In this document: positions 12,101 to 29,787 of the stretch, piece by piece
Layout of the letters: the number at the start of each line of letters is the position of its first letter
Numbering within the stretch: the stretch's first letter is position 1
NCBI RefSeq assembly: GCF_900009265.2
Contig: NZ_LR735021.1
Location: 188,436-252,435, forward strand
Direction of reading: 5' to 3'
Source: Planktothrix paucivesiculata PCC 9631
GTDB taxonomy: Bacteria; Cyanobacteriota; Cyanobacteriia; Cyanobacteriales; Microcoleaceae
Length of the DNA stretch: 64,000 nt
The notes under the pieces: model-generated
Database searches by the model: none
Seen by the model: only the letters and a program-made list of their open reading frames with translations
Told to the model about the DNA's origin: nothing
Translations under genes and position numbers: made by a program

Positions 12101-15100
12101 CTAAACACAGCGGGAAAGTTCTGGATGTAGATGGTGCTAAGAAGGAAGATGCAAATGTTCATCAATGGACATGGGTGAATGGAGATAACCAAAAATGGCA
12201 ATTTGTGTCAGTAGAGGGGGGATACTATGAAATTGTTGCCAAACATAGTGGCAAGGTTCTAGATGTATCTGCGGCAAAGAAAGATAATAATAGAAATGTC
12301 CAGGTGTGCAATCGGTTCAATGTAGATAACCAAAAATGGAAGCTTGAGGGGTTGGGAGGCAACTGCTATAAAGTTATTGCCAAACACAGTGGCAAGGTTC
12401 TGGATGTATCAGGAAAATCCACGAGCGATGGAGGGAATGTCCAGCAGTATGAATGGCAAGCCAAAGATCCCCAAGGTCAAGAATGGTTGATTGATAAGCT
12501 AGATGAATATCCGAATGATGCAATTAAAAAGGCGAACGAGGCACTACAAAGCAAAAACAGTGAACTTCTCAAAGCTCAAATAGAATTAAGTGATTTCAAT
12601 GATGCCAGCGATCTATTGAATATTGTGAACCAACGACTCACTATTATTCAGAACGAGATTAAGAAATTAAATCTGAAAGAGATTGGTGGTCAATCAAAAC
12701 CCATGATAATGACCGTTCTGGCAACTGATCGCCGGAAATTGATAACTCAAGGCGCATTATTGGACTTTGTTCGTCCTACCAGCCGATTAACTGCTCTTGA
12801 AACCTGTGAAGGTAATGTCCAACTGACCTACTTTGATAATCAAGGCAAAATGCGGCAAACCATCTTTGACGCTACCACTGACAGTCGTAATGCCTCATTT
12901 GAACAGTGGATTCCTGATCAGCTACCTCTTTGTTTAAAACTTTCTGGGAGTGGTTCTATTAATTGCGGTAAAATTGCCCTTGACAACCGGAGTTTTACGA
13001 TTGAGTTTTGGGCAAAACGGGATCAGCTTGGGAAAAGCTTCCTTCTTAGCCAAGGTAAGGAAGAAAAAAATAAAGCCTTACACATCGGCTTCCGCGAGAA
13101 TGGAAAGTTTACGTTTGCTTTTTACGGCAACGATCTCGACACAGACAAAGATTATAACGATTTTGAGTGGCATCACTGGTGTTGTGTTTATGACATTCAA
13201 ACGGATGCAAAAAATGTAAAAACTACTAGAACACGAGCGATTTACCGAGACGGAGAAGAAGTCGTCAAGCAAAACACTGAAAATGATCACGAAGAAGAAG
13301 TCGCCAAGCAAAACACTAAAGATTATCAAGGTTCAGGTGATTTAATACTAGGACAATACATAAATTCACAGTATCCTTTTGTAGGAAGACTTGTAGAAGT
13401 TAGAATTTGGGAAATTGCCCTGAGTGCAGAAGAGGTTGCAGTCAATAGTAAAGTCCGGCTCAGTGGCAATGAACCTGGGTTAGTCGCATATTATCCTCTG
13501 AATGAATTAGATAAAATCCGAGATCTGACTGGAAAACAAGCTGATGGAAACATTCAAGGTACTCCGAGTTGGATTGGATGTACCGCACCGATTGGTAAAT
13601 TTAAGCATTCAGTTTTAAGATTAGATGGTGTCGATGATTATTTAAAAGTTCCCAATTCAGATGAGCTTGATTTTGCTACAAACCAAAATTTTACGGTTGA
13701 ATCATGGATAAAAGCAGATTTGATTCAGCAAGATAAAAGCAATAAGGACAACGATATCATTGAAAAATGGGAAGGAAACCAGGGATATCCCTACGTTATC
13801 AGGTATCTTCCAGACAGTGGGCAGATTTTAGCTGGTCGATATGACGGCACTAAAGGAGTTGCTATTACTTCGGCTGTAAGCATTAATGATGGACAGTTTC
13901 ATCATGTTTCTTTTGTAAAAGAAGGAAATAAGCTATTCCTTTACATTAATGGTAAGATTGCTAACGGTGGCAGTAAAACAGATACACTTACTGCTAATAC
14001 CAAGAATGGCTCTCCGCTCTATTTAGGTTGCAGAGGCGGGAATACGAAAAATTTCTTTACTGGTCAAATTTCAGAACTCCGTATCTGGAACAAAGCTCGC
14101 ACTGAGCAAGAAATTCAGGCTAATATGCACAAGCGGCTAACGGGAACAGAATCAGGACTTGTTGGATATTGGCCACTTAATGAGATTGATAGAACACAAG
14201 TATTAGACCTTAAAGGTACTAATCCTGGCACAGTCGAGGGTCCTGTGATAACCCAAGACTATACTCTGCCAATTGGTGAAGATGCACTGATTAGCTGTGA
14301 ATACAGCACGATTGGGTTAGATGCTGATCAGAAAAAATCTGCTATGATGCGGCGTTTCTTTGCTTATCCTAGTATTGCTGGGGTCAACCTATTACCCGAT
14401 AAACGAATTGAAACCTTAGAAATGGCATGGATTGGGAATGCTCAGATTAATCCTACCTTGTTGGGCTATATTGAAGGTGCGCCACCTATACCAAGCGAAA
14501 ACCTAACTATAGAGGATAACTACAACGCAGCGACTTCCGTAGAACTTGTGTCATCTGAGGATGTTGCCTATAGCTGGAACCGCGAACAGGAAGCAGGATT
14601 AGGTGCAACAAGCTCTCTCTTTATGGGAGTGGATCAAAAAGTCACCGTTTCAGCGGGAGTTGGAGCGGAAGTTGGTGAGACAGCCTTAGAGACAAGAGTA
14701 GGATTTCAAGGAAACTTATCTTCAAAATACAGCTTTCTCAACAGTAGCAATGTTTCATCATCATCTGGTTTAAACATTACTAATAAGCTAAGTTTAGTCG
14801 GCACTCAGGAAAAGCAGCCTAAATTCAACCAACTCGGTAGCCGTTTTATTCCTAAAAATGTTGGCTATGCGGTAGTCGTGTCGGGTTTGGCAGATGTTTT
14901 CATTCTGCGTCTAAGCCGTAGTCAAAAAGTCGTGGGTACTCAAATTTTACCTAATGAAAATATTCCTTTAGATGTGAATACCATTACGTTCTTGATCAAT
15001 CCTGCCTACACCATGAATGGCAGTCTGGACGGAATGACTGGCAGCAAGGCAACGAGCGAACGATTCTTCCAGCAGGTTTCAGAGAAGCGAGCGCAATATG

Positions 15101-16149
15101 GTTCTCTCTATCCAGCCAGCTATTTCCGTTTGCTAGAAGCCTATGATTTGAAAAAACAAATTGACTATCGAGATCAACAACGCAAGTCTTACTTTGAGCA
15201 ATTTAATTCACGACTTGTCGATGAGGCTTCTTTAGACAGGGAAGTAAATAATTCAAACTACAACACAGGTGAGACGAATCTTGGCAAAGAAGATGAAACT
15301 AAAAAACTCGATCAAGAGATCAAAACTCTGGAAAAAGAAATAGAAAATCTTGAAGCAAAAGTTTCTTTGTCACCAGAAGACCAAAAGAAATTGGATCAAA
15401 AAGGAAAAGAACTAGACCAAAAGCAGAAGCAAAAAGAAGCAGCCTTACAAGATAAGATTAGAGACTTAGAAGACTTGAGATCCTCTACAAAAGAAAATTC
15501 AGCAGCAGACGACAAAAAGAAAGAAATTAACTCTCGATTTAACGATGCTTCCCAACAAATTCATGCAACAGAAAGCTTGGCGGGTTGGCAAAAAAAGATG
15601 GAAAATATTCAACTTCTTGCGGGTAAACGTAACATCGTTAATGCCTATGTGTGGGATGCGGATGGAGGCTTCTACTCTGAAAGCCAGCAGTTTAGCAATT
15701 CCATTGAACATACAATTGGAGGCTCGTTTAATTTAGAGACAGCGGTTGGAGGTCAAGGTGTCCTCAAGGTGTTTGGAGTGGGTTCTGAGTTACAAGCACA
15801 GGCGACGGTTCACATGACCCAAACAATGACTAAAACCGTAAGTCAAAGTAAGGGCTTTGCCCTAAATGTCGATATTAGTGGAGTCGAAAGCCGAGGTATT
15901 ACCGATTATAAAGATCGCCCCATATTACCTGGTGAAAAAGTTGATCGCTATCGCTTTATGAGCTTCTACCTTGAAGGTAGCACCAATAATTTCAATGATT
16001 TCTTTGCCTATGTGGTCGATCCCGAATGGTTAGCTAGTAATGATGAAGAAGCTCGTGCCTTGCGTCAAACGGCGACTGGTTCACCCAATAAGACTTGGCG
16101 GATTTTGCATCGGGTCACTTATGTGGAACGTCCAGCTTTAATGAGTTAG
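9103..16149 (+). CDS. giant LamG / ricin-lectin protein with possible pore-forming C-terminus
   Basis: This 2348-residue protein has no recognisable signal peptide. Approximate order: strand-rich N-terminal region (1-380); two related ~60-residue modules (about 383-445 and 466-527, sharing ITSxxxxxLxxGDxVxIxGT); LamG jellyroll 1 (about 540-760); coiled coil; ricin-type beta-trefoil with three KHSGKVLDV repeats and QKW motifs (about 994-1133); LamG 2 (about 1275-1480); LamG 3 (about 1503-1720). Then comes a Ser/Thr-rich amphipathic strand region (about 1800-1960), a Lys/Glu-rich coiled coil (about 2050-2160), and another alternating strand region (TVHMTQTMTKTVSQSKGFAL, about 2240). LamG and ricin domains bind glycans. 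The strand pattern resembles aerolysin/MACPF-like toxins, which is inference only. It ends 206 bp before the lipid operon, with no proven link. Confidence 0.75.
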   Translation: MLLSNSSIQKTNHYINCITHEGKVVLFGTAPDGKIYYTVKRDGYEDNPDYDNNGWENWSQLEFPNEDPDSSVVEKERKELTRQDFPNSFILQSRYRTNEESAVAPVQLVSGLGHIYVFRQSKTNTLLVDRFVLDGMTNTLNRKLEVRYQQSRKKYEPFKANKNSQGIGISSFDSLNFQDKDKKKFYEPTTEISIVNNLFNGWFSVVLLPTNELDKYRWHIFAYNRDTKKVEIISILASEEGLFDVKDSTVFDPKPGEPSVLLPRRIPGIIRRSLELNDDKGKILKIVNGLSATKYDVQSEILTQDNQTQLIKDATKIMLVIPTDQGNTVALSFAAAKDGTLSQISEDENSQILRSNNRYVLLPLNTLDEIKAIGDSTPPATGTIAGMARTEGDRIQITSAQAVTLNPGDNVKIQGTTHYNGYHVVQKINDNTFEIEAKWVDGNSENWQVGTWEELPSEQSGLVFDGIITAFERTVEGKLMITSPNHGLDSGDGVQISGTQGYDDTYPVTEVDSNRFTLDVKWQPGAAANVKLESRKQRGINFDGIGDYIEIPALSELKPPSPDYSFGETYSVWIYLSNNGTGEQLIVGEKGQLMQLALNNNQAILRVSFSDGFRQIEDPLPVTTNQWVHYAGIFSCEQKTTDDQKTTETNLILCRNGEQVAKQVVSATPESKPQAQDSGGSSNANKNKWQPEFLIGGTAKSNYFTGKISDVQVWNHARQPKEVQDSMYLRLTGKEVGLVGYWRLGAIVEGDKREVVDFSVFDNNGIVYGDAFVSAVTLARKLKDNKTLIVQYTNDEMFAVTQRATYIESFEFKLDQLIDPNNIDGKGNKVFKLSYWGKANRDSEKQENFLPENSILEDLKNGWYQASARFTIPDGVKMVRSFGLVDVKGDNWTKLEIRKHRIQLVSDAITEAQYSDEVKLQTLVNQQSAAQQNLQILARYEQEEGILLLRKWELEQANKPDRKINLEKKISELKREVEQCQKSYDDAKANIQNYWYKIVAKHSGKVLDVDGAKKEDANVHQWTWVNGDNQKWQFVSVEGGYYEIVAKHSGKVLDVSAAKKDNNRNVQVCNRFNVDNQKWKLEGLGGNCYKVIAKHSGKVLDVSGKSTSDGGNVQQYEWQAKDPQGQEWLIDKLDEYPNDAIKKANEALQSKNSELLKAQIELSDFNDASDLLNIVNQRLTIIQNEIKKLNLKEIGGQSKPMIMTVLATDRRKLITQGALLDFVRPTSRLTALETCEGNVQLTYFDNQGKMRQTIFDATTDSRNASFEQWIPDQLPLCLKLSGSGSINCGKIALDNRSFTIEFWAKRDQLGKSFLLSQGKEEKNKALHIGFRENGKFTFAFYGNDLDTDKDYNDFEWHHWCCVYDIQTDAKNVKTTRTRAIYRDGEEVVKQNTENDHEEEVAKQNTKDYQGSGDLILGQYINSQYPFVGRLVEVRIWEIALSAEEVAVNSKVRLSGNEPGLVAYYPLNELDKIRDLTGKQADGNIQGTPSWIGCTAPIGKFKHSVLRLDGVDDYLKVPNSDELDFATNQNFTVESWIKADLIQQDKSNKDNDIIEKWEGNQGYPYVIRYLPDSGQILAGRYDGTKGVAITSAVSINDGQFHHVSFVKEGNKLFLYINGKIANGGSKTDTLTANTKNGSPLYLGCRGGNTKNFFTGQISELRIWNKARTEQEIQANMHKRLTGTESGLVGYWPLNEIDRTQVLDLKGTNPGTVEGPVITQDYTLPIGEDALISCEYSTIGLDADQKKSAMMRRFFAYPSIAGVNLLPDKRIETLEMAWIGNAQINPTLLGYIEGAPPIPSENLTIEDNYNAATSVELVSSEDVAYSWNREQEAGLGATSSLFMGVDQKVTVSAGVGAEVGETALETRVGFQGNLSSKYSFLNSSNVSSSSGLNITNKLSLVGTQEKQPKFNQLGSRFIPKNVGYAVVVSGLADVFILRLSRSQKVVGTQILPNENIPLDVNTITFLINPAYTMNGSLDGMTGSKATSERFFQQVSEKRAQYGSLYPASYFRLLEAYDLKKQIDYRDQQRKSYFEQFNSRLVDEASLDREVNNSNYNTGETNLGKEDETKKLDQEIKTLEKEIENLEAKVSLSPEDQKKLDQKGKELDQKQKQKEAALQDKIRDLEDLRSSTKENSAADDKKKEINSRFNDASQQIHATESLAGWQKKMENIQLLAGKRNIVNAYVWDADGGFYSESQQFSNSIEHTIGGSFNLETAVGGQGVLKVFGVGSELQAQATVHMTQTMTKTVSQSKGFALNVDISGVESRGITDYKDRPILPGEKVDRYRFMSFYLEGSTNNFNDFFAYVVDPEWLASNDEEARALRQTATGSPNKTWRILHRVTYVERPALMS

Positions 16150-16355
16150 GAAAAGTTACTGCAAAGTAAGTAAACTGCATTTGAGCATTAAGTGCGATCG
16201 CCCAACTTCACAGCCTAATTCAGTCAACATGGGTCGATTGAAGAGCGTGAATAGGGCGATCGCTTCTATCCATTAACCTCCAAAAAGTTGCTCCAGTCAT
16301 CGAGCAAATTGAAATGAGAAGGGGGGTCAGCTTATAAATCTCTGGGTAAAGATGT

Positions 16356-19300
16356 ATGAAAATTACAAATTTTATTGATATTATTCAATTGAGAGCTTTA
16401 ATTGAGCCAGATAAAACCTCTTTTATTTTTCTGCAAGACGGAGAAAGAGAAGCCACCAAACTTACCTATAAAGAATTAGAGCAACAAGTAAAAGCGATCG
16501 CATCTCAACTGCAAAAGATCGCCAATCCTGGGGATCGAGCTTTACTTCTCTACCCACCAGGACTTGATTTTATTACAGCCTTTCTTGCTTGTTTATATAC
16601 TGGAGTAATTGCAGTTCCAGCCTATCCACCCCGACGAAATCAACATCAGTCTAGGTTAGAAGCAATCATTGCAGATGCTCAACCGCTAGTTGTTCTAACT
16701 ACAACTGATTTGTTAGCAAATATTAGCAATCAAATAAGCCAAAATCAGCAATTCTCAAACTTGCAATGTATCGCTACTAATAATCTGCTGAGTAGTGAAA
16801 ATTTTACTCCTTATCAAGCTACTTCAGATACCCTGGCTTTTTTACAATACACTTCAGGATCTACAGGTACGCCAAAAGGTGTAATGGTTACACATGGCAA
16901 TTTATTGCATAACAGTAAACTAATCCAGACTTGTTTTCAAAACACACCAGATAGTTTAGGAGTGTCTTGGTTGCCACCTTATCATGATATGGGATTGATT
17001 GGTGGAGTGCTACAACCGTTATATGTTGGTGGGTCTATGATTTTAATGTCACCATTAGCATTTATCCAAAAACCTTGGCGTTGGCTACAAGCTATTTCTC
17101 GCTACAAAGGCACTACCAGTGGTGGGCCAAATTTTGCTTATGAATTATGTATTAAAAAAATTACGCCAGACCAAAAAGCACAACTTGATCTTAGTTCTTG
17201 GGAGGTCGCTTTTAATGGCGCAGAACCGATTCGTGCAGAAACGCTGGAACAGTTTACGGCAGCTTTTAAGTCTTGTGGTTTTCGGCGCGAAGCATTTTAT
17301 CCCTGCTATGGTATGGCGGAAGCAACTTTATTAGTTTCTGGAGGGTTGAAAACATCTCCACCGATTGTTTCTCAACTTGATGACATAACAGGGCAAAACC
17401 AAGGAGTTCCAAATGCTAATATTTCAGTAAATGTCCATAAAATTGTTAGTTCTGGTCAGACAGGAGTAGACCAAAAAATAACGATTGTTGACCCTAAATT
17501 ATTAACTCCATGTTCTGAAGAGCAAGTAGGAGAGATTTGGGTATCAGGGCCAAGTGTAGCCAAAGGATATTGGCAGAAATTAGAGGAAACAGACAAAACT
17601 TTTAATGCTTATCTAGGAGATGAAGGGCCTTTTTTAAGAACTGGAGATTTAGGAATTTTGCACAATGGGGAACTTTATGTTACAGGTCGCCTAAAAGACC
17701 TAATTATTATTAGAGGCAAAAATTATTATCCTCAAGACATAGAATTAACGGTAGAAGAAAGTCACCAATCTATAAACAAACCTAATGCTTGTGCGGTTTT
17801 TGCCAGTGAAATTAATGGTGAAGAAAGCATAGTTATTGTAGCTGAATTAGAACGAGGTTATCGAGGATCAAATACGAATTTGAGTGTAGAGAATCTTGAG
17901 CAAGAAACGCCACTAGCTTCATCAAAAGTTGAACTAGAAGCCGTGTTTAGTAGCATTAGACAAGCGGTAGCTAGAGAACACGATCTGCAAGTTTATGCAA
18001 TTTTACTGGTTAAAGTTGGGAGTATTCCTAAAACTTCTAGCGGTAAAATTAAACGCCATGCTTGTCGGGATAGATTTCTGGCAGGAACATTGAAAATATT
18101 GGGAGATTCTTATTTGCAATGCACTCAAAAACCAGCAATTCTTAATAATTCTAATGAAATAGATAATTATCAACTCAAACTAGACCAAGCTGATTTAGAC
18201 CCAACCAAAGCTGATAGTGACCTTCTAATTCAGTGGTTGCGCTCCTATGCTCAAGAGCGAATCAATTCTTTTATTATTGATGAACGTCGTTGTATTCCCC
18301 CTTATATAGTCTTGGATTTCGGTAATCAAGGACTTTTAGGGATGCAAGTACCAAAGCAATATGGAGGAATTGCCCTAAGTAACGTTAGTACCATGCGAAT
18401 TTTGGAGCAGTTAGGGGCAATTGACTCTACTTTGGCGTTATTCACTGGTCTGAACAATGTTTTAGGTATTCGCCCTATTCTCAATTATGCCACTAATGAA
18501 GTACGCGATCGCATCCTACCGATCCTTGCCACTGGTAGAGAACTAGCAGCTTTTGCCCTCACAGAATCAGGTGCCGGGTCTAATCCTCAAGCCATTTCTG
18601 CTCAAGCCATACCAACGAATCACGGGGGTTGGCAATTATATGGCACAAAAATTTGGAGTGGTGCAGCAGCTTGGGCAGGTGTAATTAATGTATTTGTGCA
18701 AAATGTTGATCAAAAAGGTAAACCCAAGGGTATCAGTGCATTCGTAGTGAGACAGGGCAGTAAAAACCTCCGTCAAGGGCCAGAAGCCCTGACAATGGGG
18801 ATGCGGGGGATGATTCAAAACACCATCTATTTAGAGGGCGTCCCTGTAGAACCAGAACATTTGTTAGGTCAGCCAGGAATGGGGATGGAAGTTGCTCAAG
18901 ACGCGATGATGTACGGGCGCTTGAGTATTGCTGCTGCTTGTGTAGGCGGAATGAAACGTTGCGCTCAGTTAATGGTACGCTATGCTGAACGCCGATCTAT
19001 TTCTACTGGACGGCTTTTAGATAATCCTGTAACTTTAAAGCGCCTAACAGATTTAACGGCAGCAACGGCGGCAGTTGAATCTTTGGTTTATCGCATAGCT
19101 ACTCTACTAGACTTGGGGTATCCCGTTCCCGTAGAAGCTTACACAGCTTGCAAAACCTCTGCACCAGAATTTTTCTGGCAAGCGGCTGACCATCTAGTAC
19201 AACTACTAGGGGGACGTGGCTATATTGAGACGAATATTGCACCCCAGATTTTACGAGATGCTAGGATTTTAAGGATTTTTGAAGGGCCAACAGAAACGCT

Positions 19301-21368
19301 CAACAGTTTCTTAGGTTCGCGCTTAGTTCATCACGGCGAGGAACTCGCTCGATTTTTGAGCGAAGGATTGAATGCTGCCACAATTTCTCAACGTTTGCAA
19401 GCTTTAGCAGCACAGATTTATCATCAATATAGTGAGTCGAAAGAAGATCCCATTACTGCAACTCGTTGGGCTTATCTACTCATTGGTGAACTTGCAACCA
19501 AAGGGATTTTGTTAGCTGCGGCTGAGTGGGCATATACACGCGCTGAATCACCACATCTACATCAAACTGTTACTTGGGCACAACTACAATTTGAGCAAGC
19601 AATTGCGAACACGCTTTCTCAATTTGAAAATCATGCTCTTTTTTGGCAAGCAAACAATATTGTGGAAAGAGTTAACAGCTACGTTAATAATATAGGCGAG
19701 CTAGAACAAAATTTAGCAGGTGAAGATCGTGAATTAGATAATTTTCTGCGTAAAAATATCAATAAAAATCTTGATAATGATCCTATAGAATCTAAGGCAT
19801 TAATTAAATTTGAGCAAATTAAACAGGAGAACAAAGTTTTAGATAGCCCAGATGTTACAGAAACACAATTAAGCAATAATTATCAATCTATTCAAGATTG
19901 GATTGCTAATTGGTTAGCTGGCAAATTAAAAATTACTGTAGAAAAAATTAATATCAACCAATCATTTTCAGACTATGGCTTAGATTCAGTAACAGCTATA
20001 GAACTATTACACGAGCTCAACCAGTGGTTAGCAAGCGCTTTAGAATTAGAAACATATCTAATTTGGCAATTTCCAACTATTGCTCAGTTAGCTAATTACA
20101 TAGCTGATCAATTAGAAAAAATTTCTTCCCCTAATACAGTGCAATTTAGTTTACTACCAGATGAGGCTATCGATCTCAATTCTGAAGCAATTTTAGAGTC
20201 AGAAATCACTCCTATATCTAACAAATCTTCTATTATATCTCAATCATCAACCATCTTTTTAACGGGAGCAACTGGATTTTTAGGTGCTTTCTTATTAGCA
20301 GAATTATTACACAAAACATCTGCTAAGATTTATTGCTTAGTCCGAGCAGTAGATGAAGATAAAGCTTTAATGAGAATCCAAAATAACTTAGATTATTACT
20401 CACTTTGGCAGTCAAAATTTAGTAATAGAATAATCCCTGTATTGGGTGATATAGATCGTCCACAATTAGGTATTAGTAATGAATATTTTGCCAAACTAGC
20501 GACAGAAATAGATCTGATTTATCACAATGCGGCTGTGGTTAATTGGGTATTTCCTTACTCTAGCCTAAAGTCAAGTAATGTATTGGGAACTCAAGAAGTT
20601 TTAAGATTAGCGACTCAAAGCAAAATTAAACCAGTACACTATATCTCAACAACAGCAGTATTTGAATCTCCATCCTATGCGGGAAAAGTAGTTTGTGAAC
20701 AAGACCCTTTGATGTTTAGTGAAGGGATTTATTTAGGCTATTCGCAAAGTAAATGGGTAGCAGAAAAATTAATAGCGATCGCACGAGATCGAGGTTTACC
20801 TGTTTCCATTTACAGACCTCCGTTAATTTCTGGACATAGCAGAACAGGAGAATGGAATATTGATGATTTTACCTGTTTGATGATTCGAGGTTGCGTGCAG
20901 ATGAAAGCTATGCCAAAATTAGATTATCTGATGGATCTCGCGCCAGTTGATTTTGTAAGTCGTTCTATCGTTTATTTATCACAACAGCCTGAATCTTTAA
21001 ATCAGGTATTTCATTTGAATAATCCCTATCCTCTTCATTGGAATAAGTTTATCGAGTGGATACTTGAATATGGTTATCCAATTGATCAAATTCCTTATCA
21101 AGACTGGCTCAATCGCCTCAAAGAAGAATCAAGTTCTACAAACAATCCTTTATCACCGCTATTAAGTTTTTTCCTCAAACAATGGTCTGACACACAACTA
21201 ACTATACCTCAAATGTATCAGCAAAAATCTAAACCGAGAATTGACTGTCAACAAACTATCTTAGCCCTGGCTAATAGTGGAATTACTTGTCCTCGATTAG
21301 ACGATCAATTGCTGCATACTTACTTTGAATATCTATTAAAAAAAGGAGGACTAAATCCACCAATTTAA
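16356..21368 (+). CDS. FAAL-acyl-CoA dehydrogenase-ACP-thioester reductase megaenzyme
   Basis: This 1670-residue enzyme joins four domains. (1) Fatty-acyl-AMP ligase, about 1-590, with AMP-binding loop YTSGSTGTPKG (165-175) and RTGDLG. (2) Acyl-CoA dehydrogenase, about 620-1010, with the FAD motif AAFALTESGAGS, LGGRGYI, and the catalytic Glu of RIFEGPTETL (near 975), VLCAD-like. (3) Acyl carrier domain, phosphopantetheine Ser1211 in DYGLDSVTA. (4) C-terminal NAD(P)H thioester reductase, with TGATGFLG (1303-1310) and catalytic Tyr1462/Lys1466 in YSQSK. It should load a free fatty acid, desaturate it at C2-C3, and release it as an aldehyde or alcohol. It is the first gene of the putative ether-lipid operon. 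Domain identities are firm; the product is inferred. Confidence 0.9.
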   Translation: MKITNFIDIIQLRALIEPDKTSFIFLQDGEREATKLTYKELEQQVKAIASQLQKIANPGDRALLLYPPGLDFITAFLACLYTGVIAVPAYPPRRNQHQSRLEAIIADAQPLVVLTTTDLLANISNQISQNQQFSNLQCIATNNLLSSENFTPYQATSDTLAFLQYTSGSTGTPKGVMVTHGNLLHNSKLIQTCFQNTPDSLGVSWLPPYHDMGLIGGVLQPLYVGGSMILMSPLAFIQKPWRWLQAISRYKGTTSGGPNFAYELCIKKITPDQKAQLDLSSWEVAFNGAEPIRAETLEQFTAAFKSCGFRREAFYPCYGMAEATLLVSGGLKTSPPIVSQLDDITGQNQGVPNANISVNVHKIVSSGQTGVDQKITIVDPKLLTPCSEEQVGEIWVSGPSVAKGYWQKLEETDKTFNAYLGDEGPFLRTGDLGILHNGELYVTGRLKDLIIIRGKNYYPQDIELTVEESHQSINKPNACAVFASEINGEESIVIVAELERGYRGSNTNLSVENLEQETPLASSKVELEAVFSSIRQAVAREHDLQVYAILLVKVGSIPKTSSGKIKRHACRDRFLAGTLKILGDSYLQCTQKPAILNNSNEIDNYQLKLDQADLDPTKADSDLLIQWLRSYAQERINSFIIDERRCIPPYIVLDFGNQGLLGMQVPKQYGGIALSNVSTMRILEQLGAIDSTLALFTGLNNVLGIRPILNYATNEVRDRILPILATGRELAAFALTESGAGSNPQAISAQAIPTNHGGWQLYGTKIWSGAAAWAGVINVFVQNVDQKGKPKGISAFVVRQGSKNLRQGPEALTMGMRGMIQNTIYLEGVPVEPEHLLGQPGMGMEVAQDAMMYGRLSIAAACVGGMKRCAQLMVRYAERRSISTGRLLDNPVTLKRLTDLTAATAAVESLVYRIATLLDLGYPVPVEAYTACKTSAPEFFWQAADHLVQLLGGRGYIETNIAPQILRDARILRIFEGPTETLNSFLGSRLVHHGEELARFLSEGLNAATISQRLQALAAQIYHQYSESKEDPITATRWAYLLIGELATKGILLAAAEWAYTRAESPHLHQTVTWAQLQFEQAIANTLSQFENHALFWQANNIVERVNSYVNNIGELEQNLAGEDRELDNFLRKNINKNLDNDPIESKALIKFEQIKQENKVLDSPDVTETQLSNNYQSIQDWIANWLAGKLKITVEKININQSFSDYGLDSVTAIELLHELNQWLASALELETYLIWQFPTIAQLANYIADQLEKISSPNTVQFSLLPDEAIDLNSEAILESEITPISNKSSIISQSSTIFLTGATGFLGAFLLAELLHKTSAKIYCLVRAVDEDKALMRIQNNLDYYSLWQSKFSNRIIPVLGDIDRPQLGISNEYFAKLATEIDLIYHNAAVVNWVFPYSSLKSSNVLGTQEVLRLATQSKIKPVHYISTTAVFESPSYAGKVVCEQDPLMFSEGIYLGYSQSKWVAEKLIAIARDRGLPVSIYRPPLISGHSRTGEWNIDDFTCLMIRGCVQMKAMPKLDYLMDLAPVDFVSRSIVYLSQQPESLNQVFHLNNPYPLHWNKFIEWILEYGYPIDQIPYQDWLNRLKEESSSTNNPLSPLLSFFLKQWSDTQLTIPQMYQQKSKPRIDCQQTILALANSGITCPRLDDQLLHTYFEYLLKKGGLNPPI

Positions 21369-21389
21369 TTGCTAGAGATAAATTAATTA

Positions 21390-22142
21390 ATGCACAAAAA
21401 AGAGATAGCTTTAATCACCAATGACTCATCTAAATTAATGAAAAACCCCCAACTTCCAAATTGTCTTGTTAATCCAGTCCAAAATATTATTTGGATTGGT
21501 GGTAGAGCAATTTACCAACATTGGTTTAAACTAAAATGTCAAGGAATAGATAATATTCCCCAAGAGCAAGCATATATAATTGCGGCTAATCACGTTAGCC
21601 ATCTTGATGGCCCAGCACTGATAGCAGCCCAAGGTAAACATTTTAAAAATGTTTATAGCCTAGCAGCAAAAGATTACTTTTTTCAAGAACCGTTTAAAGC
21701 TTGGGTGTACAAGAATTTCTTTAACATGATTGCTTTTAAACGAAAAAGTAATTTTTTAAGTTCTGTGCGTTACTGCCAAAAAATTGTTGCTGAAAATAAA
21801 GTAATTGTTTTTTTTCCAGAAGGAACTCGTTCTGTAACAGGTGAACTGCAACCACTAAAACTAGGGCTAGGCTTATTAGTGGTTCACTTAAATGTTTTGG
21901 TTGTTCCTGCTTATATTTATGGGACTTATCAAGCTTTGCCTAAAGGTAGACATTTTCCTAAACGACATCCAATTTATGTAAGTTTTGGCTTACCTTTAGA
22001 CTTCAGCCATTATCAAGCTAAAAAACATCTACTTGACAATCGGCAAATTCAACGAGAAATTATTAATGATGTGTATGTAGCGATTGCTCAATTGCGTGAC
22101 AATTTATTAGGAGGTTTGAATTATGAAAACTTGGGGACATAA
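21390..22142 (+). CDS. PlsC-type glycerol(one)-phosphate acyltransferase
   Basis: This 250-residue membrane-associated acyltransferase has the PlsC/LPLAT motifs NHVSHLD (His68, Asp73) and FPEGTR (142-147). In this operon it could acylate dihydroxyacetone phosphate to give the acyl-DHAP needed by the next enzyme, or add the sn-2 acyl chain later. It follows the megaenzyme by 21 bp, and its end overlaps the AGPS gene by 20 bp. No Shine-Dalgarno is obvious at the ATG 21390; an internal ATG at codon 17 is an alternative start that keeps all motifs. Confidence 0.88.
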   Translation: MHKKEIALITNDSSKLMKNPQLPNCLVNPVQNIIWIGGRAIYQHWFKLKCQGIDNIPQEQAYIIAANHVSHLDGPALIAAQGKHFKNVYSLAAKDYFFQEPFKAWVYKNFFNMIAFKRKSNFLSSVRYCQKIVAENKVIVFFPEGTRSVTGELQPLKLGLGLLVVHLNVLVVPAYIYGTYQALPKGRHFPKRHPIYVSFGLPLDFSHYQAKKHLLDNRQIQREIINDVYVAIAQLRDNLLGGLNYENLGT

Positions 22143-23856
22143 ATGGGGGTTTGCCGATACCCAGTTTGTAATTAATGAGGATCGCTCTGTAACTTTGACA
22201 GGCGATCGCTACAACCTATCAGGTTATAAAATGCCTTATTTCCTTCCCTATATAGAAGAACAATTAGGTATTGAAATTAATCCCTATGACCAACAACAAG
22301 AAATCACAGAAAAGTCGATCAACCCTCCAACCATTAACAAAGATTTTTGTCAAGCCTTGGCAAATATATTTCCTAGCAATCAATATACTTTTGAAGATCG
22401 AGAACGCCTGTTTCACAGTCATGGACAAAGTGCTTTTAAAGAAATTTACAAAGTTCTTTATTCTAAATTAGACCGAACTGTAGATATGGTATTTTACTGC
22501 CAATCAGAGTTAGATGCAAAAACAATTATCAATCTTGCCATAGAACATAATATTTGTCTTGTTCCTTTTGGAGGCGGAACTAATGTTAGCTGTGCTTTAA
22601 AATTACCAGAAAACGAAAAAAGAATGTTAGTTTCTGTAGATATGCGACGAATGGATAAAATTGAGTGGATCGATCAAGAAAATCTCCGCGCTTGTGTTCA
22701 AGCAGGAATTACAGGTCAACAGCTTGAGGAACAGTTAAGAAATGATGGTTTTATTTGCGGTCACGAACCTGATAGCTTAGAGTTTTCGACTTTAGGCGGT
22801 TGGATTTCTACAAATGCCAGTGGAATGAAGAAAAATCGCTATGGTAATATTGAGCAAATTGTAGAAAATATTACTCTAATTACTCCCAAAGGCACAATTG
22901 AACAAATACAACCAACCCCCCGCTCTTCCATGGGAATACAGATTCAAAATCTCTTATTCGGGAGCGAAGGAAACTTAGGATTAATTACCAAAGCCGTGAT
23001 TAAAATTAATCCTGTTCCCGAAGTAAAAAAATATGGTTCTCTCGTTTTTCCTAACTTCGAGTTAGGAGTAAAATTTTTATATAACTTAGCTCATAATGGA
23101 TTTGTACCAGCTAGCATTCGCTTAGTTGATAATAACCAATTTCGCTTCAGTCAAGCACTTAAACCAAAGTCAACTAATATTAAAACATGGATTGATAAAC
23201 TCAAAAAAATCTATGTATTAAATCTGCGTGGCTTTAATCCTAACCAAATGGTAGCAGCAACTATTGTGATGGAAGGCTCTGTTCAAGAAGTTGCCTATCA
23301 ACAAGCTAATATATATGCCTTAGCCAAAAAATATCAAGGTTTGGTATCGGGGGCAGAAAATGGAAATCGGGGCTATATGCTAACTTATGCTATTGCCTAT
23401 ATGCGCGACTTCTTATTAAAGTTTTATATTATGGGTGAAACATTTGAAACCTCTGTTTCTTGGAGCCAAATTCATCAACTTTGTCAGGCTGTTGACCAGA
23501 CATTGAAAGAACAACATCAGAAATTTAATTTACCTGGAAAGCCTTATCTGTCTTACCGGATTAGTCAAATTTACCATACAGGGGTTTGTTTATATTTTAT
23601 GTTTGGCTTTTACAGTAAAGGAGTGGAATACCCAGAAGTAGTTTCTACTCAAATCGAGCATTCTTTGAGACAAGCAATCATGGCAAATGGTGGGTCTATT
23701 TCTCATCATCATGGTGTTGGCAAAAGTCGCCAAGAATTTATTAAAAATACTCTGTCATCTGATAGCATTGAATTAATTAAAGAGATTAAACAAGCTAACG
23801 ATCCGCAAAACATTTTTGGAATCGGCAATTTTTCGAGAGATAGTAAAACTATATGA
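22123..23856 (+). CDS. alkylglycerone-phosphate synthase (AGPS/ADPS), ether-lipid enzyme
   Basis: This 577-residue FAD-dependent enzyme follows eukaryotic alkyl-DHAP synthase along its whole length. It has N-terminal MKTWGHKWGFAD; VPFGGGTNVS (147-156); GHEPDSLEFSTLGGWIST (from 213); SGMKKNRYGN; GSEGNLGLITKAVIKI; PASIRLVDNNQFRF; a histidine triplet SHHHGVGK (His528-530); and Tyr491 in VCLYFMF, matching the AGPS active-site Tyr and His triplet. AGPS swaps the acyl chain of acyl-DHAP for a fatty alcohol, the step that makes the ether bond. Generic FAD-linked oxidases (GlcD-type) lack these AGPS-specific blocks. It overlaps both neighbours, so it is translationally coupled. Confidence 0.9.
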   Translation: MKTWGHKWGFADTQFVINEDRSVTLTGDRYNLSGYKMPYFLPYIEEQLGIEINPYDQQQEITEKSINPPTINKDFCQALANIFPSNQYTFEDRERLFHSHGQSAFKEIYKVLYSKLDRTVDMVFYCQSELDAKTIINLAIEHNICLVPFGGGTNVSCALKLPENEKRMLVSVDMRRMDKIEWIDQENLRACVQAGITGQQLEEQLRNDGFICGHEPDSLEFSTLGGWISTNASGMKKNRYGNIEQIVENITLITPKGTIEQIQPTPRSSMGIQIQNLLFGSEGNLGLITKAVIKINPVPEVKKYGSLVFPNFELGVKFLYNLAHNGFVPASIRLVDNNQFRFSQALKPKSTNIKTWIDKLKKIYVLNLRGFNPNQMVAATIVMEGSVQEVAYQQANIYALAKKYQGLVSGAENGNRGYMLTYAIAYMRDFLLKFYIMGETFETSVSWSQIHQLCQAVDQTLKEQHQKFNLPGKPYLSYRISQIYHTGVCLYFMFGFYSKGVEYPEVVSTQIEHSLRQAIMANGGSISHHHGVGKSRQEFIKNTLSSDSIELIKEIKQANDPQNIFGIGNFSRDSKTI

Positions 23857-24662
23857 ACAAGTTTAATGGTTTAGTAGCATTAATTACTGGGGCATCTTCT
23901 GGTATTGGGGCAGAAATTGCCAAAGAACTCGCTCGTCAAGGCGCAAAGGTAGCACTTTTGGCAAGACGCATAGACCGATTAACAGCTATAGCCACAAAAA
24001 TTGACCCTAGTGGTCAAAAGGTAATAGCGATTCAGTGTGATGTAGCTATAGATGAAGAAGTTGAAAAAGCTGCCAGTTTTGCTCGAAGTAAGTTCGGCAA
24101 AATTGACATTGTTGTTGCCAATGCGGGTTGGTCTTTAAAAGGAAAAGTAGCCGACTTAAGCGTGAATGATTATCGCAAGCTATTTGCTACAAATGTGTTT
24201 GGAGTTCTTAACACAATCCACGCTACCTTAGATGACCTGAAAAAAACCCAGGGAAGATTAGTGGTGATTAGTAGCGTTAAAAGTTACATTGCCTTGAGTG
24301 GTGATTCTGCTTATAGTATGAGCAAATTTGCTTTACGGGCTTTATGCGAATCCTTATCTCAAGAATTAGCTGCTGATGGGGTATCAGTAATACACATTTG
24401 TCCTGGGTATGTGGCAACGGAAATTCGCCAAGTCGATAACGAGGGGGTTTGGCATCCAGATTGGTCAGATTCTATTCCGTCAATATTATTAATCTCTCCC
24501 ACCCAAGCCGCCAAAGAAATTGTGAAGGCGATCGCCCAAAGAAAACCGGAAAAAGCCATTGCGAACTATAGCAAAATAATTATTTTTATGAAACGCCATC
24601 TACCTGGTTTAGTCAGATGGATCATATTCAGATTCAAAATTAAAGTTTCTTATAAAATGTGA
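23853..24662 (+). CDS. short-chain dehydrogenase, probable acyl/alkyl-DHAP reductase
   Basis: This 269-residue classical SDR has the cofactor motif TGASSGIG (12-19), NAG in the fourth strand, a catalytic Ser in VVISSVKS, and Tyr154/Lys158 in YSMSK. ARR after the second strand favours NADP(H). The ATGA overlap with AGPS couples it to ether-bond formation. The natural next step is reduction of alkyl-DHAP to 1-alkyl-glycerol-3-phosphate, done in mammals by the SDR DHRS7B/PexRAP. The C-terminus (HLPGLVRWIIFRFKIK) is basic and hydrophobic, consistent with membrane contact. SDR class is certain; substrate is inferred from position. Confidence 0.88.
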   Translation: MNKFNGLVALITGASSGIGAEIAKELARQGAKVALLARRIDRLTAIATKIDPSGQKVIAIQCDVAIDEEVEKAASFARSKFGKIDIVVANAGWSLKGKVADLSVNDYRKLFATNVFGVLNTIHATLDDLKKTQGRLVVISSVKSYIALSGDSAYSMSKFALRALCESLSQELAADGVSVIHICPGYVATEIRQVDNEGVWHPDWSDSIPSILLISPTQAAKEIVKAIAQRKPEKAIANYSKIIIFMKRHLPGLVRWIIFRFKIKVSYKM

Positions 24663-24670
24663 GGATAATT

Positions 24671-25600
24671 GTGGAAATTTTCAATCCGTTAATTGTACCA
24701 ACGCTGACTCTTTTGGGGGGAGAAATTGCGATCGCGCTATCCTTTTTCACTCTATTTGCCATCATCTATCGACGGGATGCAGCTAAAATTAAACATCATG
24801 CCTTAAAATTAGCCATCTTAATTGCCATTGGGTTAATTTTAATTGGTGCCGCTGGACTGGGAAAATACGGATTGCTCCCTGTGACTTTATTATTAGCCTA
24901 TTTTGGCTGGCAGGAATTACTCAATACTGTACAAATAAAGTATGGTGCTATTCCTTTACCCATGTTGTTACAACTGTTAGGAACAGTTGGAATTGTTGGG
25001 GGTCTGTGGGAAAATCCTTTAGCAATTTTCTTCGGGGTGATTGTTGCTACTTGGGTCGGAATTGCCATCCCCATTTTTATTCTTGATAATCCCCCACCCA
25101 TGTACGGAATGTTAACGACAGCTTTTGGCATGGTTTTGATCACCCTACCCCTCGCCTGTTTACTCACACTGGTTGATTCGGCTTATCAAGAATTTAATCT
25201 TCTCATCTTACTGGTTTTAACCCATGATGGTTTTTCTCAAGGGGTTGGTCAAATCTTAGGAAAAAATCCTCTGATTCCTAAAATTAGTCCTAATAAAACA
25301 TGGGAAGGAACTATAGGAGGACTGCTATCTTGTCTACTTTTAGGTGGTTTTGCTCATTTTATCTTACCAGAATGGCAGCTTTGGCAAGTTTTATTATTAT
25401 CAGGAGCAGTTGCTTTTCTGGCACTCACGGGTGATTTGATTGCTTCTTGTCTCAAGCGAGAAGCAGGAATCAAAGATTTCAGTCAAATCTTAGCAGTAAC
25501 AGGAGGAATTTTAGATAAGTTTGATAGCCTTATATTTACAATTCCAATTTTTTATATTATCGTGAATTTTCAACATCATCTCAATTTTTTGATGAATTAA
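24671..25600 (+). CDS. CdsA-like phosphatidate cytidylyltransferase
   Basis: This multi-pass membrane enzyme (309 residues) is of the CTP_transf_1 family. The family signature is seen near the C-terminus as SCLKREAGIKDFSQILAVTG followed by GILDKFDS, with NKTWEGTIGG upstream. The usual HGG...DR is TGG...DK here, a departure from housekeeping CdsA. It would convert (alkyl,acyl)-phosphatidic acid and CTP to the CDP-lipid. I prefer the GTG at 24671 because GAGG (24661-24664) lies at ideal spacing; GTG at 24659 is possible and would overlap the SDR stop. Confidence 0.82.
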   Translation: MEIFNPLIVPTLTLLGGEIAIALSFFTLFAIIYRRDAAKIKHHALKLAILIAIGLILIGAAGLGKYGLLPVTLLLAYFGWQELLNTVQIKYGAIPLPMLLQLLGTVGIVGGLWENPLAIFFGVIVATWVGIAIPIFILDNPPPMYGMLTTAFGMVLITLPLACLLTLVDSAYQEFNLLILLVLTHDGFSQGVGQILGKNPLIPKISPNKTWEGTIGGLLSCLLLGGFAHFILPEWQLWQVLLLSGAVAFLALTGDLIASCLKREAGIKDFSQILAVTGGILDKFDSLIFTIPIFYIIVNFQHHLNFLMN

Positions 25601-25608
25601 GGAGCAAA

Positions 25609-26238
25609 ATGTTTAGTCCTATTCTGCGTCAACTTGATTTAGCTAACAGTTTAACTTTAACTGGATTAGTTTTGAGTTTTTTTTCGGTTCTGTTTACAGT
25701 CAACGGGCATTATAATCAAGCCGTAATTTGTATAATCTATGCTGGCATAATTGATTTATTCGATGGGTTTGTTGCTAAAAAAATTTCTCGTACAGAATTA
25801 CAGTCCGAAGTGGGTAAGCAATTAGATAGTATTGTAGATCTTTGTTCCTTCGGTTTAAGTCCAGCAATTTTTGCGTACTGCTTTGGATTGAACGATTTAT
25901 TATCGATCGCCATATTAATATTTTATTTAGCAGCCAATGCTTTGCGATTAGCATATTTTAACACCACAGGTTTAATAAATGAAGGAAATGAACAATATTA
26001 TACAGGCTTACCTGTTACTTACACGGCTCTGTTTATTCCTTTGGTATTTACAGCGAGATTTGTGTTGCCGGATAACATAATGAAGTTAGTTATAGAGGGT
26101 CTTTACTTACTATTAGCTTTAGCAATGTTAGGAAACTTTAAAATGCTGAAGCTGCGCGGTATTTGGTATGCCATATTTGCTTTTGGTGCAATTGGACTAA
26201 CGGCTGTATATGTTTGGGCGATTGCTCTTGGCATATAG
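25609..26238 (+). CDS. CDP-alcohol phosphatidyltransferase, PssA-like
   Basis: This 209-residue membrane protein carries the CDP-alcohol phosphotransferase motif as DGFVAKK...SEVGKQLDSIVD. The four Asp residues are present, but Lys replaces the usual Arg of DGxxAR and the loop is about three residues longer than standard. The segment SEVGKQLDSIVDLCSFG most resembles phosphatidylserine synthase (PssA). It would attach a head group, probably serine, to the CDP-lipid made by the preceding CdsA-like enzyme, 8 bp upstream. A good GGAG precedes its ATG. The exact alcohol acceptor is uncertain. Confidence 0.85.
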   Translation: MFSPILRQLDLANSLTLTGLVLSFFSVLFTVNGHYNQAVICIIYAGIIDLFDGFVAKKISRTELQSEVGKQLDSIVDLCSFGLSPAIFAYCFGLNDLLSIAILIFYLAANALRLAYFNTTGLINEGNEQYYTGLPVTYTALFIPLVFTARFVLPDNIMKLVIEGLYLLLALAMLGNFKMLKLRGIWYAIFAFGAIGLTAVYVWAIALGI

Positions 26239-26328
26239 TTATAGCATGATTAATAATAAAGAGCCTTGAAATCAGCAGAAAAAGCGCAAAACTGGCAAAA
26301 GCTATAGCAAAACTTAACCACTAGAAAA

Positions 26329-27609
26329 ATGCAGACTTTCCTTTTGATTTGGTTTGGACAGCTAATCTCTCTAATTGGTTCTGGGTTGACTCGCTTTGCA
26401 TTGGGAGTGTGGCTGTATCAGACTACTGGCTCATCAGTACAATTTTCGCTGATGTATGTATTTGCTGAATTACCTTATATTATCCTTGCTCCTTTTGGAG
26501 GCGCAATTGCTGATCGATGGAATCGACGTTTGCTGATCATTTTAAGTGATATCGTTGCCGCTCTTTGTACTCTTTCTATTGCTTTGCTGATGTGGCAAGG
26601 TGGGTTACAAATTTGGCATCTTTACCTAGCAGTTGGAGTCAGTTCTGCTTGCAAAGGATTTCAACAACCAGCTTATTATACAATCCCAACGCTCTTTGTT
26701 TCTAAAGAAGATTTTGGTCGGGCTAATGGTATGATTCAACTCGCTCAAGGAGCAGGGCAATTATTATCGCCTATCTTAGCTGGAATATTAGTCGATACAA
26801 TTAAAATATATGGAGTTATTTTTATTGATTTTATTACCTTTATTATAGCTACATCAACACTAATATTTATATCATTTCCTAATGTTGCTCATCACCGTTA
26901 TGGTAACTTTTCTCCAACTTCACTGTTAGAGAATATCGTTGAGGGTTGGTATTATATCAAGGCTCGTCGTGGTTTATTAATGCTCCTAATATTCTTTTTT
27001 ATTACTGACTTCACGATTGGGTTAGTACAAGTATTAATAACTCCAATGGTGTTAAGTTTTACCAATGCGAAAGTTCTAGGTCAAATTTTTTCTATAGGTG
27101 GAAGCGGTTGGTTATTAGGAGCTATTTTAATGAGTACCTGGAGCGGTTTTAAGCGGAAAGTTGATGCTGTCTTATGCTTTGAATTTATATTAGGCTTTTC
27201 AATTTTAGTAGCAGGTTTGCAACCTGAACCAATATTAATTAGTGCTGCCGCTTTCTGTGCTTTTTTTAGCGTTCCCGTTATTATTAGCTCTCATAATTCA
27301 ATTTGGCAGGTTAAGGTTGACCCAAAAGTTCAAGGTCGTGTTTTTGCCTTGCGGGGAGCGATCGCTTGGGCTGCTTTTCCCTTTGCTTACCTTGTGGCTG
27401 GCCCTTTAGCAGACTATGTATTTCAGCCTTTATTACTTCCAGATGGATTACTAGCAAATAGTGTTGGTCTAGTGATTGGTGTCGGCCCAGGCAGGGGTAT
27501 TGGCTTACTATTCATTTTAGTAGGAATATTTGTAATATTGGCAACAGTTGCTGCTTATAATTATCCAACTATTCGCAGGGTAGAAGATGAATTACCTGAT
27601 ATTGAATAG
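26329..27609 (+). CDS. MFS transporter, candidate exporter or flippase of the lipid cluster
   Basis: This 426-residue, 12-helix major facilitator protein has the loop motif GGAIADRWNRR after helix 2. It resembles the MFS_3 subgroup (enterobactin-exporter type) common next to cyanobacterial lipopeptide genes. It follows the PssA-like gene by 90 bp on the same strand and ends the cluster, so it may export or flip the product. It could also be an independent drug exporter. Codon use and AT content match the preceding genes. Confidence 0.8.
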   Translation: MQTFLLIWFGQLISLIGSGLTRFALGVWLYQTTGSSVQFSLMYVFAELPYIILAPFGGAIADRWNRRLLIILSDIVAALCTLSIALLMWQGGLQIWHLYLAVGVSSACKGFQQPAYYTIPTLFVSKEDFGRANGMIQLAQGAGQLLSPILAGILVDTIKIYGVIFIDFITFIIATSTLIFISFPNVAHHRYGNFSPTSLLENIVEGWYYIKARRGLLMLLIFFFITDFTIGLVQVLITPMVLSFTNAKVLGQIFSIGGSGWLLGAILMSTWSGFKRKVDAVLCFEFILGFSILVAGLQPEPILISAAAFCAFFSVPVIISSHNSIWQVKVDPKVQGRVFALRGAIAWAAFPFAYLVAGPLADYVFQPLLLPDGLLANSVGLVIGVGPGRGIGLLFILVGIFVILATVAAYNYPTIRRVEDELPDIE

Positions 27610-27782: not shown

Positions 27783-28676
27783 TTAGTCCAGCAATTTGTC
27801 TAAGGCTGTTTGAGCAATTAGTTCCGCTTTCTCTGATGTGACTTTTTGATACTGTAACGTGGTCTGGATACTACTATGTCCCATCAATGCCCGTAATTCT
27901 TCTAAACCCATTAACCCGACTCGCTCGGTGGCAAAAGTATGTCTTAAATCATGCAATCTAGCGTCTTGAAGTGTAGGGACGAGGGCGATCGCGTCTTTCC
28001 AGTCTTGATAGGCTTGGCTGTAGCTAAGGCGGCTGATCTGGAGGGTTTTGGGGTGCTGGGCGACAAATAAGGCGGTGGCCTGGGGAGGGCGAGTCCCCTG
28101 AATATAGCGTTCTAAGGCTTGGGCTGCATCGGCACTGTAGAAGCACCAGCGTCGTTTATTGCCTTTACCGATGACTTGGAATTTGCGGTCGGAGGAGTTG
28201 ATTTGGTCGAGATCTAAGGCGAGGACTTCACTAACTCTGGCCCCACTGCGGTGTAGTAAACGGACTAATGCCATGAGTCGCCAGTTGGAGAGGTGGCGGA
28301 TGGCTTGATATAGGGCGTTGAGTTGATGGGGTTTAAGGTAGCGGATCGTGCTGTCTTCGTGGTGTTCTCCTTGCTGGGCATCGGGTTTTCTGGGTTTGAG
28401 GCGGGCGATGGGGTTGAGGGGGATATAGCCTTCATCTACGGCAAAGTTCATGAGGGCGATGAGGATGCGTTGATGGCGGCGATGGGTGGTGTAACTCAGG
28501 TGGGTTAAGGAGTCGAGGTAGTCGCGCACTTGTTGGCGATCTAGCGTTTTAATGTCCGAGAAGCCATACTGTTGTAGGAAGGGAATCAGGGTGAGTTCAT
28601 AAGACTTTCGGGTAGCGGGGGAAAGTTCAGGACGCTGTAAAAATTGGGTAGCAATTGTAGCAATTGTGGTTGTCAT
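27783..28676 (-). CDS. tyrosine recombinase (XerC/XerD-like)
   Basis: This site-specific recombinase of about 297 residues starts at ATG 28676 (MTTTIATIATQFLQ). A longer frame opens at 28730, but its first 18 residues are atypical. Core-binding domain residues are about 1-95. Catalytic residues: Arg in RSGARVSEVL, Lys in GKGNKRR, HxxR in HDLRHTFAT, His in LMGHSS, and Tyr in TTLQYQKV. It is divergent from an XRE-type regulator. It is complete and probably functional. G+C is visibly higher than in the lipid operon on its other side. Confidence 0.92.
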   Translation of the reverse strand: MTTTIATIATQFLQRPELSPATRKSYELTLIPFLQQYGFSDIKTLDRQQVRDYLDSLTHLSYTTHRRHQRILIALMNFAVDEGYIPLNPIARLKPRKPDAQQGEHHEDSTIRYLKPHQLNALYQAIRHLSNWRLMALVRLLHRSGARVSEVLALDLDQINSSDRKFQVIGKGNKRRWCFYSADAAQALERYIQGTRPPQATALFVAQHPKTLQISRLSYSQAYQDWKDAIALVPTLQDARLHDLRHTFATERVGLMGLEELRALMGHSSIQTTLQYQKVTSEKAELIAQTALDKLLD

Positions 28677-28736
28677 AAAACAGGAATTATGCTGAAATAA
28701 GAAGAGGTTAATCACTACTGTTTTTAGCATATTTTA

Positions 28737-29231
28737 ATGCACACTTTAACATCGGAATTTCTGCCCCAACCCGAGGAAACCCTGGGGGAATACGTGCGAC
28801 GGCTGCGAGGACTGAAGCGTCTGAGTCAAGAGCAGTTGGCGCAAGGGTGTGGGTTGCATCTGCAAAGTATTGGCAAGATTGAGCGGGGGTTAACGACTCG
28901 TTTGAGTCAGAAGGCGAAACGGGGTCTGGCTCAGGTTTTGGGGGTTCCGGTGGCGTATTTGGAGGCGGCGGTGCGGGGGACGGGGGTGGAGGTGTCTCAG
29001 GCGCTGAAACTGTGTCTGTGCTGTTGGACACCGGGGACGGCGCCGGAGTTGGGGTGGCTTGACCCCAGGGCCAAGTTTTGTTTTTTGTGTGGGGGGGTTT
29101 TGTGCGATCGCTGTTCCCACTGTTCTCATCCCATTACTTCTGAGCAATATCGGTTTTGTCCGATGTGTGGTCAGTCTTATCGGGATGGAAAGCACAAAGC
29201 TGTTGATTTGAGAAAGACAGAGCAGAAATAA
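28737..29231 (+). CDS. XRE-family regulator with C-terminal zinc ribbons
   Basis: This 164-residue protein has an N-terminal helix-turn-helix of the XRE/Cro type (about 14-73: LGEYVRRLRGLKRLSQEQLA...IGKIERGLTTRLS). A Cys-rich C-terminal half follows, with LCLCC, FCFLCGG, CDRCSHC and FCPMCGQ, consistent with two zinc ribbons. It is divergent from the tyrosine recombinase with only about 60 bp between starts. That suggests it controls the recombinase from the shared promoter. The DNA is unusually G-rich compared with neighbouring genes, a sign of separate origin. Confidence 0.8.
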   Translation: MHTLTSEFLPQPEETLGEYVRRLRGLKRLSQEQLAQGCGLHLQSIGKIERGLTTRLSQKAKRGLAQVLGVPVAYLEAAVRGTGVEVSQALKLCLCCWTPGTAPELGWLDPRAKFCFLCGGVLCDRCSHCSHPITSEQYRFCPMCGQSYRDGKHKAVDLRKTEQK

Positions 29232-29752: not shown

Positions 29753-29787
29753 TAAAAGGGTTCTACAGGATATTAAAAGGAGATTAC

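Follow-up and report, generated by a model that had tools for sequence, protein, structure and literature searches.

Gene content of the locus and its flanks

The window, by which we mean the whole 64,000-nucleotide stretch of Planktothrix paucivesiculata PCC 9631 DNA that was analyzed, carries six open reading frames on the + strand between positions 16356 and 26238. Gene 1 (16356-21368, 1670 amino acids [aa]), proposed to form a line from fatty acid to (unsaturated) fatty alcohol, is composed of a FAAL domain (aa 1-610, 16356-18185; 643 bits to the FAAL structure 7r7f), an acyl-CoA-dehydrogenase-like (ACAD) domain (aa 611-1140, 18186-19775; 166 bits to the ACAD9 structure 8phf), an acyl carrier (ACP) domain (aa 1181-1249, 19896-20102; PF00550, GLDS motif) and a thioester reductase (TR) domain (aa 1291-1670, 20226-21365; 377 bits to TIGR01746). 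It is followed by gene 2 (21390-22142, 250 aa; PF01553), a PlsC-type acyltransferase proposed to act on DHAP or at sn-2, by gene 3 (22123-23856, 577 aa; FAD_binding_4 and FAD-oxidase_C), the alkyl-DHAP synthase (AGPS) predicted to form the ether bond, and by gene 4 (23853-24662, 269 aa; PF00106), an SDR and candidate alkyl-DHAP reductase. Gene 5 (24659-25600, 313 aa, GTG start; CTP_transf_1) is a CdsA-like CDP-lipid synthase, and gene 6 (25609-26238, 209 aa; CDP-OH_P_transf) is a CDP-alcohol phosphatidyltransferase resembling PS synthase (PssA). Genes 1 and 2 are separated by 21 bp and genes 5 and 6 by 8 bp, with overlaps of 20 bp (genes 2 and 3), 4 bp (genes 3 and 4) and 4 bp (genes 4 and 5) between the others; the six coupled genes of the first-pass annotation, with their coordinates, + strand and overlaps or gaps of at most 21 bp, were thus all borne out by the open reading frame and domain analysis. 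That annotation had left out a seventh gene, encoding an MFS transporter (26329-27609, +) 90 bp further on, which is a member of the same cluster and has relatives in the clusters of Calothrix and Nostoc. A promoter and terminator scan was uninformative, its values being near the shuffle mean.

A 2348-aa protein encoded on the same strand (9103-16149), in which three Laminin_G_3 and two RicinB lectin stretches were recognized but which matched no NCBIfam model, ends 206 bp before the operon, and a 1180-aa protein on the opposite strand (5368-8910) has many WD40 repeats preceded by a P-loop-like GMGGIGKST, as in STAND proteins. DNA to the left of the operon is near-identical to Planktothrix plasmids (8 of 9 plasmid records; small IS and integrase pieces). 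A plasmid-borne origin was considered and rejected, as none of the 47 plasmid records matched carried AGPS at ≥60% identity. To the right, homology with the genus mate G424 begins at 29753 and that with three other genus mates at about 30,200. This homology is separated from the operon by genes for a XerC/D-like integrase (27783-28730, −) and for an HTH and zinc-ribbon protein (28737-29231, +). Against one genus mate, only the right edge of an island (29753) was found, with no left edge within 60 kb. Contamination or misassembly is unlikely, because the window lies within a contig of 314,135 bases with Planktothrix plasmid-like DNA on the left and genus-mate homology on the right.

Identity and distribution of AGPS

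By its sequence, gene 3 is a genuine AGPS. In phmmer searches of the PDB it scored 550 bits against animal AGPS (4bby) and 297 bits against AGPS 2uuu, versus 86 bits for LctD, its best match among non-AGPS flavoenzymes, and it shared only 22 to 27% identity, over part of the protein, with the other FAD-oxidases of its own genome. Nesting among GlcD or lactate oxidases, which the first-pass annotation had named as grounds for giving up the AGPS identity, was thus not what these scores indicate. R419, R515, Y578 and H615-617, the catalytic residues of animal AGPS, are conserved in AGPS of the window, of Nostoc and of the cyanobacterial genomes G439 and G558. At S527 of the animal enzyme, threonine is found in the window and G439 and serine in Nostoc and G558.

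Matches to AGPS were rare among near relatives: they were obtained in one of the 61 family genomes, in none of nine genus mates and in 5 of the 388 order genomes sampled (E to 1e-60). Across the phylum, 15 of 386 genomes matched (E to 1e-40); these 15 matches comprise that of the genome itself, five that cover almost the whole protein at 43 to 47% identity, and nine of 28 to 32%. When genome contigs were searched for AGPS relatives (594 stretches; the best 80 of 555 relatives taken), those obtained included AGPS of Nostoc cf. edaphicum LEGE 07299 (87%), Calothrix rhizosoleniae SC01 (71%; G653 and G670 are one and the same Calothrix genome) and an Acidobacteriota metagenome-assembled genome (MAG; 68%). 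In a quickly built 98-row tree, with SH-aLRT as its sole support, AGPS of the window, Nostoc, Calothrix, G439, G558 and G593 (a partial row) formed one clade (SH-aLRT 99), which sits within a 31-row clade of Acidobacteriota, Neomarinimicrobiota, Chloroflexota and Actinomycetota, and animal AGPS branched apart from all 87 bacterial rows placed in the AGPS group. Left out of this tree were L002 to L004 (paralogues), L005 (identical to L075), L008 (identical to L096) and the second Calothrix piece. The AGPS cluster is not the oddity of one strain: AGPS of this clade occurs in five further, distantly related cyanobacteria, and the distribution of the gene cluster among cyanobacteria is sporadic.

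Recurrence of the gene set and known AGPS systems

In a synteny comparison, parts of the same set were found around AGPS in other cyanobacterial genera, as the first-pass annotation had proposed to check, and because of this recurrence the grouping of the genes exceeds chance. Over the six AGPS-bearing cyanobacteria, SDR was present in five, the adjacent CdsA-PssA pair, PlsC and PS decarboxylase (PSD) in four each, a desaturase in four (the window being without one), MFS in three and TR in two; contig ends hide some members in these counts. In Nostoc LEGE 07299, one 5.4-kb contig (coverage 2) carries the end of a desaturase gene, ACP, TR (a stand-alone protein with a TubC docking domain), PlsC, AGPS and SDR, and another contig carries the end of PSD and an MFS gene whose product is 84% identical to that of the window. 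Neither CdsA nor PssA was found in this assembly, which, lacking even a housekeeping CdsA, must be incomplete. In Calothrix, one contig carries AGPS, a PF00487 desaturase and the start of SDR at the contig end, and a second, abutting contig begins inside SDR and continues with CdsA, PssA, PSD, MFS and PlsC; the AGPS frame is broken (L053, 9977-11736) and PlsC has an internal stop (L146, 5762-6532), so that this copy may be decaying or mis-sequenced. G439 has desaturase, SDR, CdsA and PssA genes, then, between the two halves of the cluster, a gene for an mCpol-domain (minimal CRISPR polymerase) protein (L155, 15514-17040), and then PSD and AGPS on the opposite strand. In G558, PlsC and AGPS reach the contig end with a divergent desaturase gene, and another contig has CdsA, PssA and PSD with a convergent SDR gene. 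No MFS gene was found in the stretches of G439 and G558 examined, and of G593 only the AGPS start was found. The PF00487 fatty-acid desaturases beside cluster genes in four cyanobacteria (L053, 11752-12699; L155, 12018-12974; L157, 15606-16751; L020, 2-268) may be vinyl-ether or chain desaturases.

Flanking genes also differed between the two sides of the AGPS tree (tblastn; loci with enough flank). In the clade on the window side, 18 of 42 loci had PlsC upstream and 23 of 37 had SDR downstream, and AGPS was followed by a FAR-like gene in 0 of 37, whereas the corresponding counts in the other clade were 0 of 32, 5 of 35 and 21 of 35. The nearest AGPS kin are found in the PlsC-AGPS-SDR cassettes of Neomarinimicrobiota and others and in the AGPS-SDR cassettes of Acidobacteriota, which share the core genes but had no PssA, PSD or MFS near AGPS in the loci examined, and no nearby CdsA (one lies 8.4 kb away, in L043). 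Like the window, the MXAN_1676-1674 operon of Myxococcus xanthus is described as combining AGPS, an acyltransferase, a fatty-acyl reductase and a protein of the NAD-dependent dehydratase/epimerase family (PMC9131029). However, M. xanthus-type AGPS falls in a different clade, and the M. xanthus system is of the FAR type, whereas in the window the alcohol would come from FAAL-ACAD-ACP-TR, PlsC is separate, and CdsA, PssA-like and MFS genes are added. No FAR1-GNPAT fusion lies beside AGPS in the window, the FAAL-ACAD-ACP-TR protein and separate PlsC being in its place. Myxobacterial ElbD likewise joins acyl activation, ACP and reductase in a multidomain protein tied to ether lipids; the available text of PMC9131029 gives it acyltransferase and FAR1-like domains and names no ACAD, and in the window it is AGPS to which we assign formation of the ether bond. 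With the animal pathway (FAR1, GNPAT, AGPS and acyl/alkyl-DHAP reductase; PMC9131029) the proposed route shares the logical order of steps and a homologous AGPS, but its head group would be introduced through a CDP-lipid and a PS-synthase-like enzyme.

As judged from its genes, the window cluster would be a new form of the established AGPS route. Agps homologues are reported from many Black Sea phyla, with cyanobacteria not named among them in the available text of PMC11868695. We found no description of cyanobacterial AGPS ether lipids in the open-licence PMC literature, consistent with the initial view that no cyanobacterial system with this gene set has been described.

Alcohol supply, head group and proposed pathway

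FAAL, ACAD and ACP follow one another in gene 1 with their motifs intact, as in a FAAL-ACAD-ACP starter line. Proteins matching gene 1 occur in at least 223 of 388 genomes of the order (E to 1e-180; at most two candidates scored per genome), where FAAL-ACAD-ACP without TR is common; among the matches listed, only the window's own protein covered the span 1-1670, and none of the 19 nearest FAAL-ACAD-ACP loci had the TR that sets gene 1 apart from these cyanobacterial proteins. The closest PDB structure to the TR domain is the myxalamid reductase MxaA (4u7w, 353 bits), and myxalamid reductase is listed among those shown to yield alcohols (PMC2835699). Precedent for the FAAL/dehydrogenase/TR logic comes from tambjamine TamA/TamT/TamH, which similarly use a carrier-loaded fatty acid, an FAD-dependent dehydrogenase and a thioester reductase (PMC5939613); the product proposed for the window is, unlike that of the tambjamine system, not an amine but an alcohol for AGPS. 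We propose gene 1 as a natural-product-type FAAL-ACAD-ACP-TR line for alcohol supply. Its domain content had been recognized in the first-pass annotation, which listed ACAD without interpreting it; the presence of this domain leads us to predict an unsaturated, perhaps allylic, alkyl chain.

It is a distinct possibility, if not the one we favor, that ACAD is silent or serves proofreading only and that an ordinary alkyl ether with a saturated chain results. The ACAD activity of gene 1 is putative, and neither FAAL nor ACAD was matched in the stretches examined of Calothrix, G439 and G558. Against this, the IFEG motif, whose glutamate we take to be the catalytic one, is intact and aligned with that of ACAD9 (8phf), and ACAD is conserved in all 19 of the nearest FAAL-ACAD-ACP proteins among the matches listed. 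The prediction of an unsaturated alcohol extends to a planctomycete MAG (L042), in which an AGPS frame (9869-11719) ends 53 bp before a 2601-aa frame (11773-19578) with FAAL, KS, DH, KR, ACP and TR domains; no ER family was among its matches, so an alpha,beta-unsaturated alcohol is predicted there, as in the window.

PS decarboxylase (PF02666) was found in four of the six AGPS-bearing cyanobacteria (in Nostoc as a 55-aa fragment at a contig end; 25.5 bits, cut-off 22) versus 0 of 14 AGPS-lacking cyanobacteria, in a search in which six control genomes were matched, the control Synechococcus elongatus not being among them. The genome of the window had no PF02666 match. PSD lies immediately ahead of MFS in Calothrix and Nostoc, where the window has the 90 bp between genes 6 and 7 (26239-26328), and our interpretation is that the last step was lost or never acquired. 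The product predicted from this difference is ether-phosphatidylserine here and ether-phosphatidylethanolamine (PE) in the relatives, the end product in this genome being uncertain since it has no PS decarboxylase. To call the pathway complete, as had been done, is hence too strong: the PSD of the relatives is missing, and one acyltransferase is at hand for two acylations.

For gene 6, the NCBIfam models for pssA (74.6 bits, cut-off 107) and archaetidylserine synthase (82.7 bits, cut-off 240) were the best scoring, though below their cut-offs, and its sole PDB matches were to a PS synthase (one enzyme, two chains; 33 bits). Gene 5, the second CdsA copy in the genome, matched PF01148 at 141 bits; its signature is TGG..DK, as in Calothrix, G439 and G558, and differs from the HGG..DR that we take to be typical of CdsA and that the other CdsA of the genome carries. 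The steps of PlsC and SDR are assigned from position: gene 2 is proposed as the DHAP acyltransferase (the GNPAT role) from its PlsC family and adjacency to AGPS, and the assignment of gene 4 as an SDR is generic. The general reading as an ether-phospholipid operon stood; its description as plasmalogen-like is without support, as CarF/PEDS1 (PF10520) was matched in none of 14 genomes, including the six AGPS-bearing cyanobacteria, although the absence of such a desaturase, a further difference from the animal pathway, is not proven because control genomes and myxobacterial loci gave no match either.

Gene content and order, the sequence identity of AGPS and the recurrence of the set were computed here, and from them we infer every reaction, substrate and product and the order of steps. 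FAAL would activate a fatty acid and load it onto ACP, ACAD would desaturate the bound chain, probably at C2-C3, and TR would free it, more likely as primary alcohol than as aldehyde. PlsC would provide 1-acyl-DHAP, in which AGPS would exchange the acyl group for the fatty alcohol to create the ether bond, and SDR would reduce the ketone to give 1-alkyl-glycerol-3-phosphate. A second acylation, for which either PlsC or a housekeeping enzyme may account, would precede formation of a CDP-lipid by the dedicated CdsA and then of ether phosphatidylserine by the dedicated PssA-like enzyme. In the relatives, PS decarboxylase would convert the phosphatidylserine to ether PE; the MFS protein could serve to transport the lipid or a lysolipid. 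We consider it probable that this is a sporadic cyanobacterial cluster for ether aminophospholipids working along these lines. More tentatively, FAAL-ACAD-ACP-TR would make a 2-alkenol from which AGPS would form an allylic (2-alkenyl) ether lipid, its head group being serine or ethanolamine. Such a lipid would belong to none of the classes MGDG, DGDG, SQDG and PG reported for most cyanobacterial membranes, and the planctomycete, with AGPS next to FAAL-KS-DH-KR-ACP-TR, would have reached the same chemistry independently.

The operon might alternatively make a secreted ether lipid or lysolipid (a signal, toxin-like compound or surfactant) exported by MFS, a specialized metabolite in keeping with the FAAL-ACAD-ACP line, common in cyanobacterial genomes, from which gene 1 is built, with the sporadic distribution (AGPS in 5 of 388) and with an MFS gene at the operon end that has drug-efflux models among its best matches. 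We regard this as unlikely, since CdsA, PssA and PSD are enzymes of membrane phospholipids and their joint presence in relatives better fits a bulk phospholipid. Still less likely is a decaying acquisition with little or no product, PS decarboxylase being gone; the lack of PF02666 in the genome and of AGPS in all nine genus mates, the limit of G424 homology to the right of the operon and the broken frames in Calothrix would suit it, but all seven frames of the window are open, coupled and conserved. That gene 3 is a GlcD/lactate-type oxidase with another role is hardly credible: GlcD was its best named NCBIfam model (no AGPS model being among the matches), yet at 162.8 bits against a cut-off of 567.9, and we reject this reading on the PDB bit scores and the low identity to FAD-oxidases of its own genome, with the conserved catalytic residues and the acyltransferase and SDR neighbors also against it.

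Ether-linked phospholipids are known as membrane constituents of animals and of some other bacteria. The membranes of most cyanobacteria are described as made of only four lipids, of which PG alone is a phospholipid (PMC13101131). With an ether bond and a head group of serine or ethanolamine, the products of the ether aminophospholipid cluster proposed here would alter this four-lipid picture for some lineages and would give a new source of ether-lipid biomarkers. The cluster would also provide a compact, testable bacterial AGPS pathway, and the use of a carrier line of natural-product type to supply the alkyl group would join specialized metabolism with membrane-lipid synthesis.
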